Positions 53,326 to 59,946 of a stretch of 64,000 nucleotides of DNA are shown piece after piece. The stretch's first letter is position 1; each line of letters starts with the position of its first letter. The stretch comes from Pseudooceanicola endophyticus (GTDB lineage Bacteria > Pseudomonadota > Alphaproteobacteria > Rhodobacterales > Rhodobacteraceae). The translations under genes and the position numbers were made by a program. The notes under the pieces were generated by a model, which saw only the letters and a program-made list of their open reading frames with translations, had not been told where the DNA came from and did no database searches. The DNA lies in contig NZ_JAHIAB010000002.1 of NCBI RefSeq assembly GCF_018760365.1, positions 496,001 to 560,000 on the forward strand. Direction: 5' to 3'.

Positions 53326-54753
53326 CTAGTTCGAAAACGGGATCACCTTGCCCGGCCCGCTCTCCGGACCGGGATGCAGGGCAACCTGGTCGCGACCGGC
53401 ATGTTTGGCCCGGTAGAGCGCGGCATCGGCATCGGCCAGCAGCTGCGCCGGATCGCGGCGCCCGGCCAGGCCGAAGGTCAGCCCGACCGAGATCGTCACC
53501 GCCTGGTCCGGCGCCGGCAGGCCCTGCGCGCGCATCCGGTCGCGCACGCTGGCGCAGAGCCGGTCGGCGACATGGCGGGCGGCCTCGGGTCCGGTGTCGG
53601 GCAGCAGGATCAGGAATTCCTCTCCGCCGATGCGGGCCACCACGTCTTCCGCGCGCAGGCTGTCCTTGAGGATGCGCGCCACCGATTGCAGCGTGCGGTC
53701 GCCGGCGGCATGGCCGTGGCGGTCGTTCACCGCTTTGAAATGGTCGATGTCGGGCAGCAGCACGGCGAAGGGGCGGGCCTCCTGCGCGGCCTCGCGGGCG
53801 GCGCGCGCCAGCCGGGGCAGGGCGAAACGGCGGTTGCTGAGCCCGGTCAGCGGATCGGTGACCGAGGCCCGCATCCCCTCGCTCAGCTCGGCGTGCAACT
53901 GCCGGCGCTGCATCAGCCGGCCGTGCAGGCGGCGCAGCCGGGCGGCGATTTCCTCGGCATCGAAGGGGCCATCCATGACCGCGCTGGCGCCCAGGTCGTA
54001 GGCCCGCGCCCGCAGACGTACCGAACAGCCCGGCGCCAGCAGCAGCACCTCGCTGTCGAGCCGGTCGCGCCAGCTTTCCAGCGCCGCCAGGCGCCGCAGG
54101 CTGGCCTGCTCGGCATCGGCGCGCGCGCTCAGAAGGAACAGGCCGCACCGGGGCGGTGCCTCTGCGGGGCTGTCCTGACCCGGGCAAAGGCCGGGGGGCA
54201 ACTGCCAGGCCAGCTCAAGTTTCAGCCCCGGCATCCGCCCCAGCCGGTTCTGCCAGCTGCGCCCGGTCTCGGCGTCGGGGGGCAGGGCGACGATCCGTCC
54301 CAGCCCGGTGAATTGCAGTGCAGGTTCTGCCAGCCCCGGGGGATCCTGCGGTCCGCCCCGGAATTTCAGCGTCTCCAGCGTGTCGCGGGCCCGGTCATGG
54401 GCACGCAGCCTGGCCCGGAAGACCTCTTCGGGTTCGGCGCGCGACAGGATCTCGTCGGCGCCGGCCGCCAGCAGGCCGGTCCGCCCGACCTGGGCGCCGG
54501 GGGCGGTGATCACGAAAATCGTCACTTCGCTCAGCAGAGGATCGGCCCGCAGCGACTGGATGAAGCGGCCCGATGGCATCAGCCGCAGATCCTCTGCCAG
54601 CATCACCACCTGGGGATGCCAGTGCCGCGCGAGGGCCAGCGCCTCTCCGGGCGAGGCCGCAACCTGGATGTCGTAGAAATCCCCCGACAGCCGCGCAGCC
54701 AGGGTGATCCTGCGGGTGACATGTTCATCCAGGATCAGGATCCGTGCCGGCAT
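53326..54753 (-). CDS. pleD: PleD-type diguanylate cyclase (REC-REC-GGDEF)
   Basis: A 475-aa cyclase making c-di-GMP. Order: receiver 1 (1-120), a second receiver-like adaptor (about 150-280), and GGDEF domain with active-site GGEEF (about 376-380) and inhibitory I-site RAED five residues before it. Receiver 1 keeps the N-terminal acidic pair (LILDEHV) but reads VVMLAEDL where the phosphoacceptor Asp is expected, and SRAEP where the Lys is, so control by phosphorylation is doubtful. The start at 54753 has GGAGGGG upstream. Divergent from a DUF3572 gene, the usual neighbour. Confidence 0.88.
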   Translation of the reverse strand: MPARILILDEHVTRRITLAARLSGDFYDIQVAASPGEALALARHWHPQVVMLAEDLRLMPSGRFIQSLRADPLLSEVTIFVITAPGAQVGRTGLLAAGADEILSRAEPEEVFRARLRAHDRARDTLETLKFRGGPQDPPGLAEPALQFTGLGRIVALPPDAETGRSWQNRLGRMPGLKLELAWQLPPGLCPGQDSPAEAPPRCGLFLLSARADAEQASLRRLAALESWRDRLDSEVLLLAPGCSVRLRARAYDLGASAVMDGPFDAEEIAARLRRLHGRLMQRRQLHAELSEGMRASVTDPLTGLSNRRFALPRLARAAREAAQEARPFAVLLPDIDHFKAVNDRHGHAAGDRTLQSVARILKDSLRAEDVVARIGGEEFLILLPDTGPEAARHVADRLCASVRDRMRAQGLPAPDQAVTISVGLTFGLAGRRDPAQLLADADAALYRAKHAGRDQVALHPGPESGPGKVIPFSN

Positions 54754-54882
54754 CTTCCCCTCCATCGTCGCGCCGTTCCTGTGGTGTTCCGGTCCCGGGC
54801 GGCTTATGAAGGATGCTGGGTGTTTGGTTAACAAACCCTTGCCATGGTCCGACAGAATATATCCTTCGAAAGGATTTTCCCG

Positions 54883-55161
54883 ATGACGCCGAAACGCGCC
54901 GAAGAGATCGCCCTGGACGCCCTGACCTGGCTGGCTGGCAACGAGGAGCTGCTGCCGGTCTTCATGGGCTCGACCGGGCTGTCGCCCGATGATCTGCGCC
55001 GCGCCGCCGGCACGCCGGAATTCCTTGGCGCGGTGCTGGATTTCCTGACCATGGACGATGCCTGGGTGATGGCCTTCTGTCAGAGCCGCGCGCTGGCCTA
55101 TGACCAGCCGCTGCGCGCGCGCATGGCGCTGCCCGGCGGCGAGCAGGTGCACTGGACCTGA
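54883..55161 (+). CDS. DUF3572 family protein
   Basis: A 92-aa protein, mainly helical: AEEIALDALTWLAGNEELLPVFMGSTGLSPDDLRRAAG over the first half and LDFLTMDDAWVMAFC. DUF3572 is restricted largely to alphaproteobacteria and is commonly divergent from pleD, as here; function unknown. The start at 54883 has AAGGA eight bases upstream; an ATG at 54844 is in frame but weaker. Confidence 0.87.
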   Translation: MTPKRAEEIALDALTWLAGNEELLPVFMGSTGLSPDDLRRAAGTPEFLGAVLDFLTMDDAWVMAFCQSRALAYDQPLRARMALPGGEQVHWT

Positions 55162-55185
55162 GGCCTCCCGGTCCGCAAGCGGGCC

Positions 55186-55644
55186 TCAGAAGGTCCGAAG
55201 GCCGCCCTTGTCACCTTCCGAGACCTTGGCAAGCAGCCGCAGCAGCTGCTCCTTTTCACCGGGGGCAAGGCGGTCGGTCATGACGGCGGTGTTCTGCAGC
55301 GCGAAGGGGATGGCCTGGGCCAGCGCCATGTGGCCTTCGGGCGTCAGGCCGATCCGGCGGGTGCGACGGTCATCGGTGCCGGGGTCGCGCGACAGCAGGC
55401 CGGCCTCTTCCATCTGCCGCAACGCGCGCGAGGTGGCGGTGCGGTCGATGCCGACGAAATCGGCCAGTTCCGAAGGCTGGCTCAGCCCTTCGTTGGCCAG
55501 GCCCAGCAGGATGCACCAGGTGATCCGGGTCAGCCCGATCTCGCGCAGGCGGTCATCAAGGCGACGTTCCTGGAGGCGGGCGGCCAGCGACAGCCAGTAT
55601 CCAAGGGAGTCGTGAAGGCGATAGGGCGTGTTCTGCTCATCCAT
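55186..55644 (-). CDS. MarR-family transcriptional regulator
   Basis: A 152-aa winged-helix regulator: ITWCILLGLANEGLSQPSELADFVGIDRTATSRALRQMEEAGLLSR forms the DNA-binding helix pair and DDRRTRRIGLTPEG the wing. Inducer unknown. It diverges from a HAD phosphatase; the 150-bp gap contains two TTTGCAAA motifs and an inverted repeat. Confidence 0.9.
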   Translation of the reverse strand: MDEQNTPYRLHDSLGYWLSLAARLQERRLDDRLREIGLTRITWCILLGLANEGLSQPSELADFVGIDRTATSRALRQMEEAGLLSRDPGTDDRRTRRIGLTPEGHMALAQAIPFALQNTAVMTDRLAPGEKEQLLRLLAKVSEGDKGGLRTF

Positions 55645-55699
55645 GGGTTCAGAAGACCGAGCAACCGGTGAAAGTCAAGCGGCTGCCGTGGCGGGGTAG

Positions 55700-55737
55700 T
55701 TTGCAAAAGGCGTTGAAACCATTTGCAAACGCCTTGC
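55700..55737. promoter_or_regulatory. TTTGCAAA pair and inverted repeat, marR/HAD gap
   Basis: TTTGCAAA at 55700-55707 and 55722-55729, 22 bases start to start, and an overlapping inverted repeat AAGGCGTT (55707-55714) / AACGCCTT (55728-55735). Candidate operator for an ScfR-type acyl-CoA regulator or for the MarR protein. Confidence 0.45.
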
Positions 55738-55796
55738 GGGCTTGTGTCGCTGCGGGCTTTTGGGCAGGGTCCCGCAAACGATACGAGACAGGACCA

Positions 55797-56498
55797 ATGG
55801 TGGCAGGCATTCCCGTGCGCGGCATCCTTTTCGACAAGGACGGCACGCTTTTCGATTTCGGCGCAACCTGGAACGGCTGGGCCAAGGGCATTCTGACCGA
55901 GCTGGGGCAGGATCACCCCGATCGGACCGCGGCCATGGCCGAGGCGCTGCATTTCGACCTGGCCGCCGGGGCCTTCCGGCCCACCAGCCCGGTGATCGCC
56001 GGCACCAATGCCGAGGTGGCGGCGCTGCTGCTGCCCTCGCTGCCGGACTGGCAGGGCGCGCGGCTTGAAGGGTTCCTCTCGGAGCGGGCGGCCCGTGCCG
56101 CGCTGGTGCCCGCCGCGCCGCTGGTGCCGCTGCTGGAGGGGCTGCGCGGGCAGGGGCTGCGCCTGGGGGTGATGACCAACGATACGGAATTCAGCGCCCG
56201 CGCGCAGCTGTCCGGTGCCGGGGTGCTGGAGCTGTTCGATTTCATCGCCGGGCATGATTCCGGCCATGGCGCGAAACCGGCGCCCGATCCGCTGCTGGCC
56301 TTTGCCCGCGCCATGTCATTGCCGCCCGAAACCGTGGTCATGGTCGGCGACAGCACCCATGACCTGGAAGCGGGGCGCGCGGCGGGGATGCGGACGCTTG
56401 GGGTGCTGACCGGCATGGCCGGCCCCGCCGATCTGGCGCCGCTGGCCGATGCGGTGCTGGACGACATCGGCCATCTGCCGGGCTGGCTGGCGGCCTGA
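55797..56498 (+). CDS. HAD-family phosphatase (phosphoglycolate phosphatase-like)
   Basis: A 233-aa haloacid dehalogenase fold hydrolase: motif I FDKDGTLFDFG with both catalytic aspartates, motif II threonine in VMTNDTE, motif III Lys in GAKPAPDP and motif IV VMVGDSTHDLEAG. Belongs to the Gph-like group acting on small phosphates. The start at 55797 has CAGGA upstream and matches where the family begins. Confidence 0.9.
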   Translation: MVAGIPVRGILFDKDGTLFDFGATWNGWAKGILTELGQDHPDRTAAMAEALHFDLAAGAFRPTSPVIAGTNAEVAALLLPSLPDWQGARLEGFLSERAARAALVPAAPLVPLLEGLRGQGLRLGVMTNDTEFSARAQLSGAGVLELFDFIAGHDSGHGAKPAPDPLLAFARAMSLPPETVVMVGDSTHDLEAGRAAGMRTLGVLTGMAGPADLAPLADAVLDDIGHLPGWLAA

Positions 56499-56588: not shown

Positions 56589-57176
56589 ATGCACGGCTTG
56601 ATCAACCGCTCTATCGAGTGCTTCTTGCGCGATACCTACGGCGTGGGTCTCTGGGCCGATGTCGCCCTGCGGGCGGATCTGCCGGGCACTTCCTTCGAAG
56701 CGATGCTGAGCTATGAGGATGCGCTGACCTGGCGGGTGCTGGAAGCGGCAGAGGCGCTGCTGAAGAAGCCGCGCGCCGTTCTGCTTGAGGATGTCGGCAC
56801 CTATCTGGTTTCCCATGCCAACAATGAGGGGTTGCGCCGGCTGCTGCGTTTCGCCGGCGTCGGCTACGAGGATTTCCTGCATTCGCTGGACGACCTGCCG
56901 GACCGGGCGCGGCTGGCGGTGGGGGATCTGATGATCCCGCCGCTGGAGCTGAGCCAGCAGGGCGACGGGCGGTTCGTGCTGCGCTGCGGCCCCGGGATGC
57001 CGGGTTTCGGCCATGCGCTGATCGGGGTTCTGCGGGCCATGGCGGATGATTACGGCGCTCTGGTGATGCTGGACCACCTGGGCAGCCGCCGCGGCATCGA
57101 GACGATCGAGATCCGCCTGGTCGAACGCGCCTTCACCGAGGGGCGCGAGTTCGAGCTTGGGGCGCGCACCGGATGA
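56589..57176 (+). CDS. H-NOX-like protein lacking heme-ligand signatures
   Basis: A 195-aa protein of the heme NO-binding (H-NOX) family, starting MHGLINRSIECFLRDTYG as in soluble guanylate cyclase beta and bacterial H-NOX. The proximal-histidine region reads FLHSLDDLPDRA where sGC has FLQNLDALH, so the ligand position (residue 104) is Pro; and the YxSxR heme-propionate motif is replaced by CGPGM (133-137). A His at 98 is near but offset. The gene overlaps a GGDEF cyclase by 4 bases and most likely regulates it. Whether it binds heme or senses another ligand is open. Confidence 0.82.
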   Translation: MHGLINRSIECFLRDTYGVGLWADVALRADLPGTSFEAMLSYEDALTWRVLEAAEALLKKPRAVLLEDVGTYLVSHANNEGLRRLLRFAGVGYEDFLHSLDDLPDRARLAVGDLMIPPLELSQQGDGRFVLRCGPGMPGFGHALIGVLRAMADDYGALVMLDHLGSRRGIETIEIRLVERAFTEGREFELGARTG

Positions 57177-58216
57177 CGGGCCGGGAGGGCGGGGCAAAGG
57201 GCCCCCTGGCCGGGGGGCTGGTGCCGGCGCTGCCGCAGGGCTCTCTCGACGTGCTCTGCCCGATGCATCTGGTGCTGGATGCGGCGGGGCAGGTCGTCCA
57301 CGCGGGGCCGACCCTGCGCCGCCTGCGCCCCGGACAGGTGCTGACGGGCCGCCCGTTCGAGGATCTGTTCGAAGTGCAGCGCCCGCAGCTGCCCGCCGGC
57401 ATGGCCGCTCTGCTGGATCAGGCCGGAACCCGGCTGCACCTGCGGCTGCGCGATCACCCGCGCACCGGGCTGAAGGCCGTCCTGGTGCCGCTGGCCCCGG
57501 ATGACGCCGGGCGCCGCGGCGCCGTGGTGAACCTGTCCTTCGGCATTTCCATCGATGAGGCGCTGCGGGATTATTCCCTGCATTCCAACGATTTCGCCCC
57601 GACCGACCTGGCGATCGAGATGCTGTACCTGACAGAGGCGAAGCTGGCGGTGCTGGACAGCTGGAAGGATCTGAACCAGCGCCTGCAGGGCGCCAAGATC
57701 GCGGCCGAGGAGCAGGCCTATACCGACACGCTGACCGGGCTGAAGAACCGCCGGGCGATGGATCACGTGCTGGCGCGGCTGATCCGGGCCGGAGAACCCT
57801 TCGCACTGATGCATCTGGACCTGGACTGGTTCAAGGCGGTGAATGATTCCCACGGCCATGCGGCGGGCGATCACGTGCTGCAGCACGTGGCCCGCGCCCT
57901 GGTCGATGAAACCCGGGGCGAGGATACCGTGGCGCGGATCGGCGGTGACGAATTCGTGCTTCTGTTCCCGCATCTGCTGCGCCGCGCCCGGATCGAGGAG
58001 ATCGCGCAGCGCCTGATCGCCCGGCTGGAAAAACCCATCCTGTTCGGCACCGCCGTCTGCCGGGTGTCGTGCTCCATGGGCACGACGCTGTCGTCCTTCT
58101 ATGCTGCCCCGCGCGCCGACGTGATGCTGGCGGATGCGGACGCGGCGCTTTATGCTTCGAAAAAGATGGGGCGGGCGCAACATTGCTTCTTCCGTCCCCG
58201 CGCCGAGGCCGGTTAG
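57173..58216 (+). CDS. Diguanylate cyclase with H-NOX-associated PAS domain
   Basis: A 347-aa cyclase. The N-terminal PAS-type domain carries RPFEDLFEVQRPQLP, characteristic of the HNOBA domain that pairs with H-NOX in guanylate cyclases; then a coiled-coil (LYLTEAKLAVLDSWKDLNQRL); then GGDEF (257-261) with an intact inhibitory site RGED (248-251). It makes c-di-GMP, probably in response to the H-NOX-like protein encoded just upstream with a 4-base overlap. Confidence 0.88.
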   Translation: MTGREGGAKGPLAGGLVPALPQGSLDVLCPMHLVLDAAGQVVHAGPTLRRLRPGQVLTGRPFEDLFEVQRPQLPAGMAALLDQAGTRLHLRLRDHPRTGLKAVLVPLAPDDAGRRGAVVNLSFGISIDEALRDYSLHSNDFAPTDLAIEMLYLTEAKLAVLDSWKDLNQRLQGAKIAAEEQAYTDTLTGLKNRRAMDHVLARLIRAGEPFALMHLDLDWFKAVNDSHGHAAGDHVLQHVARALVDETRGEDTVARIGGDEFVLLFPHLLRRARIEEIAQRLIARLEKPILFGTAVCRVSCSMGTTLSSFYAAPRADVMLADADAALYASKKMGRAQHCFFRPRAEAG

Positions 58217-58378: not shown

Positions 58379-58846
58379 ATGCGCTGTCCGTTTTGCGGAA
58401 ATATCGACACCCAGGTGAAGGATTCCCGTCCGGCGGAGGATCATGTCGCGATCCGGAGGCGTCGCCTCTGCCCGTCCTGCGGCGGTCGTTTCACCACCTA
58501 TGAACGCGTCCAGCTGCGCGACCTCGTGGTCATCAAGTCGAATGGCCGGCGCGAGGATTTCGACCGCGAGAAGCTGGAGCGCTCGATCCGGATCTCGATG
58601 CAGAAGCGTCCGGTGGAGCAGGAACGCATCGACCAGATGATCTCGGGCATCGTGCGGCGCCTTGAAAGCATGGGCGAAACCGACATCCGCTCCAAGGTGA
58701 TCGGTGAGATCGTGATGGAAGCCCTGGCCCGGATCGACACGGTTGCCTATGTGCGCTTCGCCTCGGTCTACAAGAATTTCCAGGCTGCCGACGACTTCGA
58801 CAAGTTCGTCAGCGAGCTGCGACCGAACATCCCGCAAGACAAGTGA
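58379..58846 (+). CDS. nrdR: Transcriptional repressor NrdR
   Basis: Zinc-ribbon/ATP-cone repressor of ribonucleotide reductase genes, 155 aa. Four zinc cysteines in MRCPFCGN and [16 protein letters not shown], then the ATP cone ([21 protein letters not shown]). It overlaps ribD by 4 bases, the usual alphaproteobacterial order. I saw no convincing NrdR box directly upstream. Confidence 0.97.
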
Positions 58847-59946
58847 GCCGCGACGAGGATCTGCGCTATCTGGCGCTGGCATTGTCGCTGGGGCGGCGCG
58901 GGCAGGGCAACACCTGGCCCAATCCGGCGGTGGGCTGCGTGCTGGTGCGCGAGGGTCGGATCGTCGGGCGCGGCTGGACCCAGCCGGGGGGGCGACCCCA
59001 TGCGGAACCCATGGCGCTGCGCCAGGCGGGGCCGCTGGCCAGGGGGGCCACCGCCTATGTCTCGCTCGAACCCTGTTCGCATTACGGTCAGACGCCGCCC
59101 TGTGCCAAGGCGCTGATCGAGGCCGGTGTTGCCCGTGTCGTGGCGCCCTTCGCCGATCTTGACCCCCGGGTCGAGGGGCGCGGCTTTGCCATGCTGCGCG
59201 AGGCGGGGATCGAGGTCGCCACCGGGCTGATGACCGGCGAGGCGGCCCGCGACCTGGAAGGATTCTTCCTGAACCGCGCCCAGGGACGGCCGCGCATCAC
59301 GCTGAAGCTGGCGCTGTCGCTGGACGGCAAGATCGCCACGGCCACCGGTGAAAGCCAGTGGATCACCGGGCCCGAGGCGCGGCGCGAGGTTCATGCGATG
59401 CGGATGCGCCACGATGCGGTGATGGTGGGCGCGGGCACGGCGCGGATCGACGATCCGAGCCTGACGGTGCGCGGCCTCGGCGCAAAGCGCCAACCGGTGC
59501 GCGTGGTGGTCTCGCGCCGGATCGACCTGCCGCTGCTGGGCACGCTGGCGCGCAGTGCGCGCGAGGTGCCGGTCTGGATCTGCCATGGCCGCGATGCCGA
59601 CGGCAAGCTGGTCAGCGCCTGGAAGGAACTGGGGGCGACGCTGATCCCCTGTGCGCTCCAGGGACGACAGCTGGATATTCTTTCGGTAATGCAGGGGCTT
59701 GGCAGCCACGGGCTGACGCGGGTCTTTTGCGAGGGGGGCGGCGCGCTGGCCGCGACCCTGCTGGGCGCGGATCTGGTGGACGAGCTGATCGTGATGAGCG
59801 CGGGCGTGCTGCTGGGGGCCGAAGGGCGCCCGGGCCTGGGCGCCATGGGCATCGACAAGCTGTCCGAGGCGCCGCGCCTGACCCTTGCGGAAGAGCGCCG
59901 CATCGGCCCGGACATGATGACCCGCTGGACCCGTCCGACGGCCTGA
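58843..59946 (+). CDS. ribD: Bifunctional riboflavin deaminase/reductase RibD
   Basis: Carries out deamination then NADPH reduction in riboflavin synthesis. The 367 aa have the deaminase zinc site (HAEPMALR, His53 and Glu55; [11 protein letters not shown], Cys78 and Cys87) and the C-terminal reductase domain ([35 protein letters not shown]). Coupled to nrdR by ATGA-type overlap. Convergent with the capsule export gene. Confidence 0.96.

Follow-up and report, generated by a model that had tools for sequence, protein, structure and literature searches.

H-NOX proteins are commonly described as heme NO sensors, and the locus analysed here raises the question of what such a protein can contribute to c-di-GMP control once the residues that hold the heme have been replaced. 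The locus lies in a stretch of 64,000 nucleotides from the marine bacterium Pseudooceanicola endophyticus (hereafter the window; the assembly of the genome comprises 5.2 Mb in 46 contigs) and consists of hnoX, encoding the H-NOX-like protein P0001, and dgc, encoding its neighbour P0002. A first-pass annotation had proposed that this lineage dropped heme and NO sensing and uses another signal to set c-di-GMP, while a database record of such a protein carries the annotation 'heme NO-binding'. The missing axial His is itself already in print for two relatives, the H-NOX proteins of P. denitrificans and, likewise, R. sphaeroides (Kumar & Spiro 2017, PMC5588039).

The gene pair and its heme-site residues

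The features of the locus are compiled in Table 1.

Table 1. Features of the hnoX-dgc locus, with positions counted from the first nucleotide of the window.
Feature	Position	Strand	Basis or remark
TTGA-N7-TTAA element TTGAGCCGTTGTTAA	56530-56544	+	59 nt 5' of hnoX start
hnoX, H-NOX/HNOB-fold protein P0001, 195 aa	56589-57176	+	ORF, HNOB profile, alignment, model
His2 codon, lineage signature	56592-56594	+	residue counts, alignment
Gly70 codon, invariant	56796-56798	+	residue counts
Pro104 codon CCG, site of proximal heme-ligating His	56898-56900	+	alignment to Nostoc H-NOX
Pro117 codon	56937-56939	+	aligned with heme-side proline of H-NOX
CGPGM replacing YxSxR, residues 133-137	56985-56999	+	alignment
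Gly146 codon, invariant	57024-57026	+	residue counts
hnoX/dgc stop/start overlap ATGA, 4 nt	57173-57176	+	
dgc, HNOBA/PAS-like, long helix and GGDEF, predicted diguanylate cyclase P0002, 347 aa	57173-58216	+	
HNOBA (PF07701) match, P0002 residues 21-92	57233-57448	+	27.6 bits, cut-off 23.4
GGDEF domain, P0002 residues 182-335	57716-58177	+	131.8 bits

P0001 matches the HNOB profile (PF07700) with 65.7 bits against a cut-off of 25.5, and its structural model (64 sequences, mean pLDDT 89.1) has an ordinary H-NOX fold that resembles known structures with Z scores of up to 22.0, in agreement with the claim that the fold has been kept. Both features of heme-based gas sensors, the proximal His on helix F and the YxSxR propionate motif, are missing. 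The alignment with Nostoc H-NOX pairs LDDLPDR of P0001 with LDNLHAR, without gaps nearby, and thereby places Pro104 on the heme-ligating His; C133, P135 and M137 line up with Y, S and R of the Nostoc motif YQSTR. Both losses had been noted by the first-pass annotation and are confirmed by this alignment, which puts no His at the ligand site of P0001. The view that proximal-His ligation has been dropped in P0001 is supported at the level of sequence, and the protein probably does not act as an ordinary heme gas sensor. By alignment, we take Gly70 and Gly146 to be the hinge glycines and Pro117 to be the heme-side proline of H-NOX proteins. His98 lies six residues before Pro104, and the protein contains two Cys residues, at positions 11 and 133. 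An alternative TTG start upstream of hnoX would add merely 17 residues, and Met1 is kept in 159/171 relatives that lack His104.

P0002 is a predicted diguanylate cyclase with intact GGDEF and RxxD motifs: the GGDEF residues 257-261 as well as R248 and D251 of the I-site are invariant in alignment A2 (49 rows, taking 48 of 70 usable loci). In its model (mean pLDDT 89.7, pTM 0.58), a strand-rich, PAS-like domain precedes a long helix and the GGDEF domain. The best structural matches are PAS-GGDEF proteins; sGC beta was retrieved with an E value of 5e-13, but with a TM score of 0.31 and an rmsd of 15.7, and is ranked behind them. The description of P0002 as a coupled HNOBA-GGDEF cyclase stands as far as the overlap of the genes, the GGDEF domain and the presence of an HNOBA match are concerned; the HNOBA match, however, is partial and covers profile positions 4-75 of 216.

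The upstream element, whose half sites we label 'CtrA-like', may serve either as a site for CtrA or as a -35 region. A TTAA that starts between -66 and -40 of the hnoX start is present in 163 of 199 loci, compared with 8.05 loci on average over 20 single-base shuffles, and it is usually preceded by TT 11 nt ahead (T in 149/163 and 142/163, respectively). The exact CtrA box TTAA-N7-TTAA was found in none of the 199 upstream regions of hnoX; with at most one mismatch it was found in 39, versus 5.55 in shuffled sequences. The HNOX gene of D. shibae and the cyclase rcc02629 of R. capsulatus are both reported to be under CtrA control.

Profile searches of the window's genome yielded one match to HNOB, one to FIST, described as the sensor domain of NosP, and 16 to GGDEF. 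One further GGDEF gene is situated nearby (53326-55152, minus strand); its receiver-domain match of 26.8 bits is just under the cut-off of 30.2, and we assume it to be PleD-like. An extra GGDEF gene on the opposite strand 5' of hnoX was seen in 8/78 named loci and also on a Phaeobacter plasmid. The remaining neighbourhood (54844-56498 and 58379-59946) contains genes for DUF3572, a MarR-type regulator and a HAD hydrolase upstream, and NrdR and RibD downstream.

Spread of the His loss and constraint on the protein

The family is common in Rhodobacterales: of the 390 genomes that were sampled from the order, 319 contain HNOB and 317 a match to P0001 at E <= 1e-5. The nearest named relatives, from Oceanicola sp. 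S124 and Pseudooceanicola species, share at most 73% identity with P0001. The window protein and those of 231 loci (L001-L231) were aligned, giving 232 proteins. The full YxSxR motif is found in 30 of them, all of which have His at position 104. The proteins without the motif derive from 200 loci, after the window copies L001 and L032 had been dropped, and were merged into 190 distinct sequences; since this group was selected for lacking YxSxR, the absence of the motif holds by definition. Position 104 is not His in 171 of these 190 proteins, including that of the window; 18 have His and one has a gap. Pro is by far the most frequent residue (138), followed by His (18), Ala and Gln (8 each), Ser (6), Glu (3), Asp, Gly and Arg (2 each), and Thr and Asn (1 each). 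It should be noted that loci were the best-scoring ones of each search, so that these counts are skewed towards near relatives of the window, and the YxSxR-bearing set towards top Pfam scores. In a subset spread over 80 genomes and 56 genera (L142-L221), His was found at position 104 in 13/80, with one gap. The conservation of the frame in named relatives, together with the frequency of residues other than His at position 104, excludes chance.

A class-wide search, in which at most eight candidates per genome were scored, matched 9/385 genomes; five belong to the family of the window, and the proteins of the remaining four retain both His and YxSxR. Remnants of Y, S or R of the motif are more common in proteins with His104 (9/18) than in those without (33/171), and the same is true for Tyr alone (4/18 versus 1/171). 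In trees that were built without the columns of position 104 and YxSxR, at least 16 changes between His and other residues are needed with FastTree and at least 15 with a thinned set of 154 rows. The thinned tree separates the 149 rows without YxSxR from the five with the motif (support 100); FastTree placed one long row, L215, among the YxSxR rows. The one protein with a gap at position 104 (L176) and two with split frames (L220, L221) were counted but left out of the trees. This pattern, read from aligned residues, fits an erosion of the clamp that was followed by repeated losses of the ligand, whereby regains are indistinguishable from losses. In L220 and L221, hnoX is split in two frames beside the cyclase gene, reflecting either a recent loss or a sequencing error.

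His2 is a signature of the lineage. It is present in 181/200 loci without YxSxR and in 0/30 with the motif, where Lys (21) or Tyr (9) takes its place, and it is invariant in alignment A1 (64 rows, taking 63 of the 80 loci of the relative search). A tie between His104 and nitrite reductase was considered and rejected: among 79 genomes other than that of the window (14 with His104, 65 without), a strong cytochrome d1-family match (E < 1e-100; NirS or relatives) was found in 6/14 versus 14/65 (Fisher p 0.17), and either such a match or NirK above its cut-off in 6/14 versus 21/65 (p 0.54), in a comparison that ignores kinship and contains few His104 genomes.

The body of the protein is conserved independently of the ligand. 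Gly70, Pro117 and Gly146 are each present in 171/171 proteins without His104, 18/18 with His104 and 30/30 with YxSxR; a conserved proximal proline that distorts the heme and two hinge glycines have been described for H-NOX proteins. From 49 pairs without His104 at 80-97% identity, the 37 with a dS of 0.1-2 were retained, and they have a median dN/dS of 0.07 (range 0.05 to 0.23). The invariant residues and the low dN/dS thus indicate that the lineage of P0001 is not decaying. Residues 4, 5 and 73 are mostly hydrophobic across relatives and residues 133-137 are loosely conserved; among the aligned relatives, no new invariant polar set that might mark a ligand site was found besides His2.

The partner is also fixed. 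A cyclase gene matching the P0002 profile lies 3' of hnoX on the same strand in 200/200 loci without YxSxR, with GG[DE]EF in 200/200 and the RxxD I-site in 198/200 of the encoded proteins. The junction is ATGA in 129 and GTGA in 19 of the 200 loci (148 together), and differs in 52. One locus, L189, encodes a natural H-NOX/GGDEF fusion of 549 aa, with His at position 104 and the Tyr remaining of YxSxR, which offers a handle on the interface between H-NOX and cyclase. The proposal of a lineage that dropped proximal-His ligation is supported for Rhodobacterales, with His absent in most of the distinct proteins and the GGDEF partner and the glycines kept. Phaeobacter sp. G2, which came from a culture of Emiliania huxleyi, carries the gene pair on a 120-kb plasmid (L233, 4001-5607).

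Possible roles of P0001

We tentatively favour the reading, which falls somewhat short of an even chance, that P0001 regulates the cyclase as a subunit that works without the proximal His and is probably inhibitory, and we prefer it to heme binding via another residue and to a new ligand in the pocket. The reading derives from the fixed cyclase partner, the constrained body and the phenotype in P. denitrificans. In P. denitrificans, the hnoX mutant has no BapA, is partly deficient in biofilm and shows faster NO consumption, while dgcAB overproduces biofilm; the authors propose an inhibition of DgcA by H-NOX, and they interpret their data as NO acting via H-NOX (Kumar & Spiro 2017, PMC5588039). 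The latter interpretation speaks against our reading, as does the reported inhibition of Dgc1 by NO-bound H-NOX in D. shibae (Bedrunka 2018, cited in PMC7232146 and PMC8846402).

In such a scheme, hnoX and dgc would form a two-gene c-di-GMP module. P0001 might dock onto the PAS and helix portion of P0002, much as the H-NOX domain of sGC beta does on PAS and coiled coil, and the docked protein would restrain c-di-GMP synthesis. In canonical signalling, NO breaks the Fe-His bond, after which helix F and the subdomains shift; P0001 has no proximal Fe-His bond that NO could break and therefore cannot use this classic switch. The least certain step of the preferred form is that P0001 would by default resemble NO-bound, His-off H-NOX in its conformation. 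H-NOX mutants without the His mimic the NO-bound state, and the title of a structure of such a mutant is among the matches of the P0001 model. The output might then be set by the amount of P0001, via the conserved promoter element, or by a second ligand.

The structural comparisons bear on this step. The model matches Nostoc H-NOX (2o09_A) with a Z score of 21.3 and an rmsd of 2.2 over 178 residues. Human sGC beta gave Z scores of 22.0, 21.9 and 21.4 in NO-activated structures, 20.5 and 20.2 in inactive or unliganded ones and 18.9 in the inactive, cinaciguat-bound form, and the Manduca protein gave 17.4 in the active and 16.5 in the inactive state. The compact and extended members of the pair of ligand-free Manduca mutants (9oxn/9p2r), with 18.9 and 12.5, respectively, argue against an NO-bound-like conformation. 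For Shewanella H-NOX, the Fe(II) form has the higher Z score (20.3, rmsd 2.9) and the NO-bound form the lower rmsd (2.4, Z 19.8). Since the differences are mixed, the models at most hint at an NO-bound-like resting state. A proline kink at position 104 was considered as well, but residues 93-110 of the model form a single unbroken helix without a kink at Pro104, which speaks against it, so that the idea of a lock rests on homology and the mixed Z differences. Moreover, residues other than Pro also occur at position 104, so that a lock formed by proline cannot apply to every relative.

The foremost rival, although unlikely, is that P0001 still binds heme, via His98 or via the N-terminal His2 on the distal side, and senses NO or heme availability, so that the coordination has changed and the function has been kept. 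His2 marks the lineage, and Met1 of Nostoc H-NOX borders a tunnel to the heme propionates, which may put residue 2 close to where the cofactor sits. In addition, the H-NOX of D. shibae is counted among the heme NO sensors. However, His2 occurs with His104 (12/18) as well as without it (159/171) and need not have arisen as a replacement, and the YxSxR clamp has been lost as well. His98 had been named by the first-pass annotation as a possible ligand; it is present in 114 of the 171 proteins without His104 and missing in 57, and was therefore rejected as a general substitute. Cys133 is found in 112/171, and 33 have neither His98 nor Cys133.

A new signal in the form of another hydrophobic or small ligand (a lipid, quinone or metabolite) in the emptied pocket is less probable again. 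It would be in accord with the retention of the fold under purifying selection, with the mostly hydrophobic residues 4, 5 and 73 and with the matches that follow the H-NOX entries, mostly TRAPP Bet3-type proteins with Z scores of 9.0-9.8, one of them bound to palmitic acid. Against it stand the lack of an invariant polar set other than His2 and the loose conservation of residues 133-137, and Z scores of this size may reflect just a common arrangement. It is highly improbable that H-NOX is a decaying relic and that the cyclase alone matters: the numerous changes at position 104 on the trees and the split genes in L220 and L221 would agree with decay, but they are opposed by the low dN/dS, the invariant residues, the adjoining cyclase in all 200 loci and the phenotype of the P. 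denitrificans hnoX mutant (PMC5588039). A redox sensor like the heme-free H-NOX of Vibrio cholerae is the least credible reading. Activity of a heme-free H-NOX exists, but it requires four Cys, three of which are zinc ligands (Mukhopadhyay 2020, PMC7108781); with two Cys in P0001, fewer than the three zinc ligands, and none at all in 16 of the 190 distinct proteins, the zinc-Cys mechanism was rejected for P0001.

A bolder generalization of the preferred inhibitory-subunit reading is doubtful as a whole. It states that, in most of an order, H-NOX would have become a heme-free cyclase subunit in an NO-bound-like conformation, a natural counterpart of the laboratory mutants without the axial His, which would be controlled by CtrA gene dosage or by a new pocket ligand; the 18 relatives with His would then represent either intermediates that still exist or reversals. 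Should most members in Rhodobacterales be unable to ligate heme via the proximal His, claims that link NO to c-di-GMP and biofilm in these bacteria need direct tests. The lineage provides natural ligand-site variants in which both the body and the partner are conserved, which makes control of the cyclase by ligation, by conformation or by dosage directly testable.

Comparison with known systems

H-NOX proteins without the proximal His are a known kind, while the breadth of the loss and its combination with a conserved body appear to be under-described. Searches of the openly licensed literature gave no account of such a loss throughout the Rhodobacterales lineage, and the H-NOX terms searched for are absent from a survey of alphaproteobacterial c-di-GMP genes (PMC9756655). 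The proximal His is kept in the 598 H-NOX sequences of the V. cholerae study (PMC7108781). The V. cholerae protein acts heme-free through a zinc-Cys site that P0001 lacks.

The alpha subunit of sGC contains a pseudo-H-NOX without heme, in which the His is gone in the human and YxSxR in the moth protein and the pocket is occluded by an N-terminal extension. P0001 shares with it an H-NOX fold with lost heme-site residues, the absence of heme being known for sGC alpha. In contrast, P0001 has no pocket-occluding extension and starts at a conserved MHG, and it is encoded by a separate gene, whereas the H-NOX of sGC alpha is a domain of a guanylate cyclase.

Canonical H-NOX proteins of Rhodobacterales (L002-type) differ from P0001 in that the His is intact in 30/30 and residue 2 is Lys or Tyr. 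A match to the P0002 profile adjoins at least 8 of these 30 YxSxR loci, for which short flanks were available; six of the eight neighbours score 296-320 bits and two about 195. In D. shibae, an H-NOX gene also adjoins a cyclase gene (H-NOX/Dgc1, Dshi_2815 and its neighbour), as in the window.

The closest described counterpart is the pair HnoX/DgcA of P. denitrificans, which resembles that of the window in its overlapping genes, the absence of the axial His and Pro at the site. There, hnoX is described as overlapping the GGDEF gene (Pden_3719/Pden_3720; PMC5588039), and the database record has the MHG start, Pro at the site equivalent to 104 and an adjoining cyclase match. The two H-NOX proteins share 38.9% identity. 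P. denitrificans respires nitrite to NO (PMC5588039), whereas the profile search of the window's genome gave zero matches to NirK and NirS.
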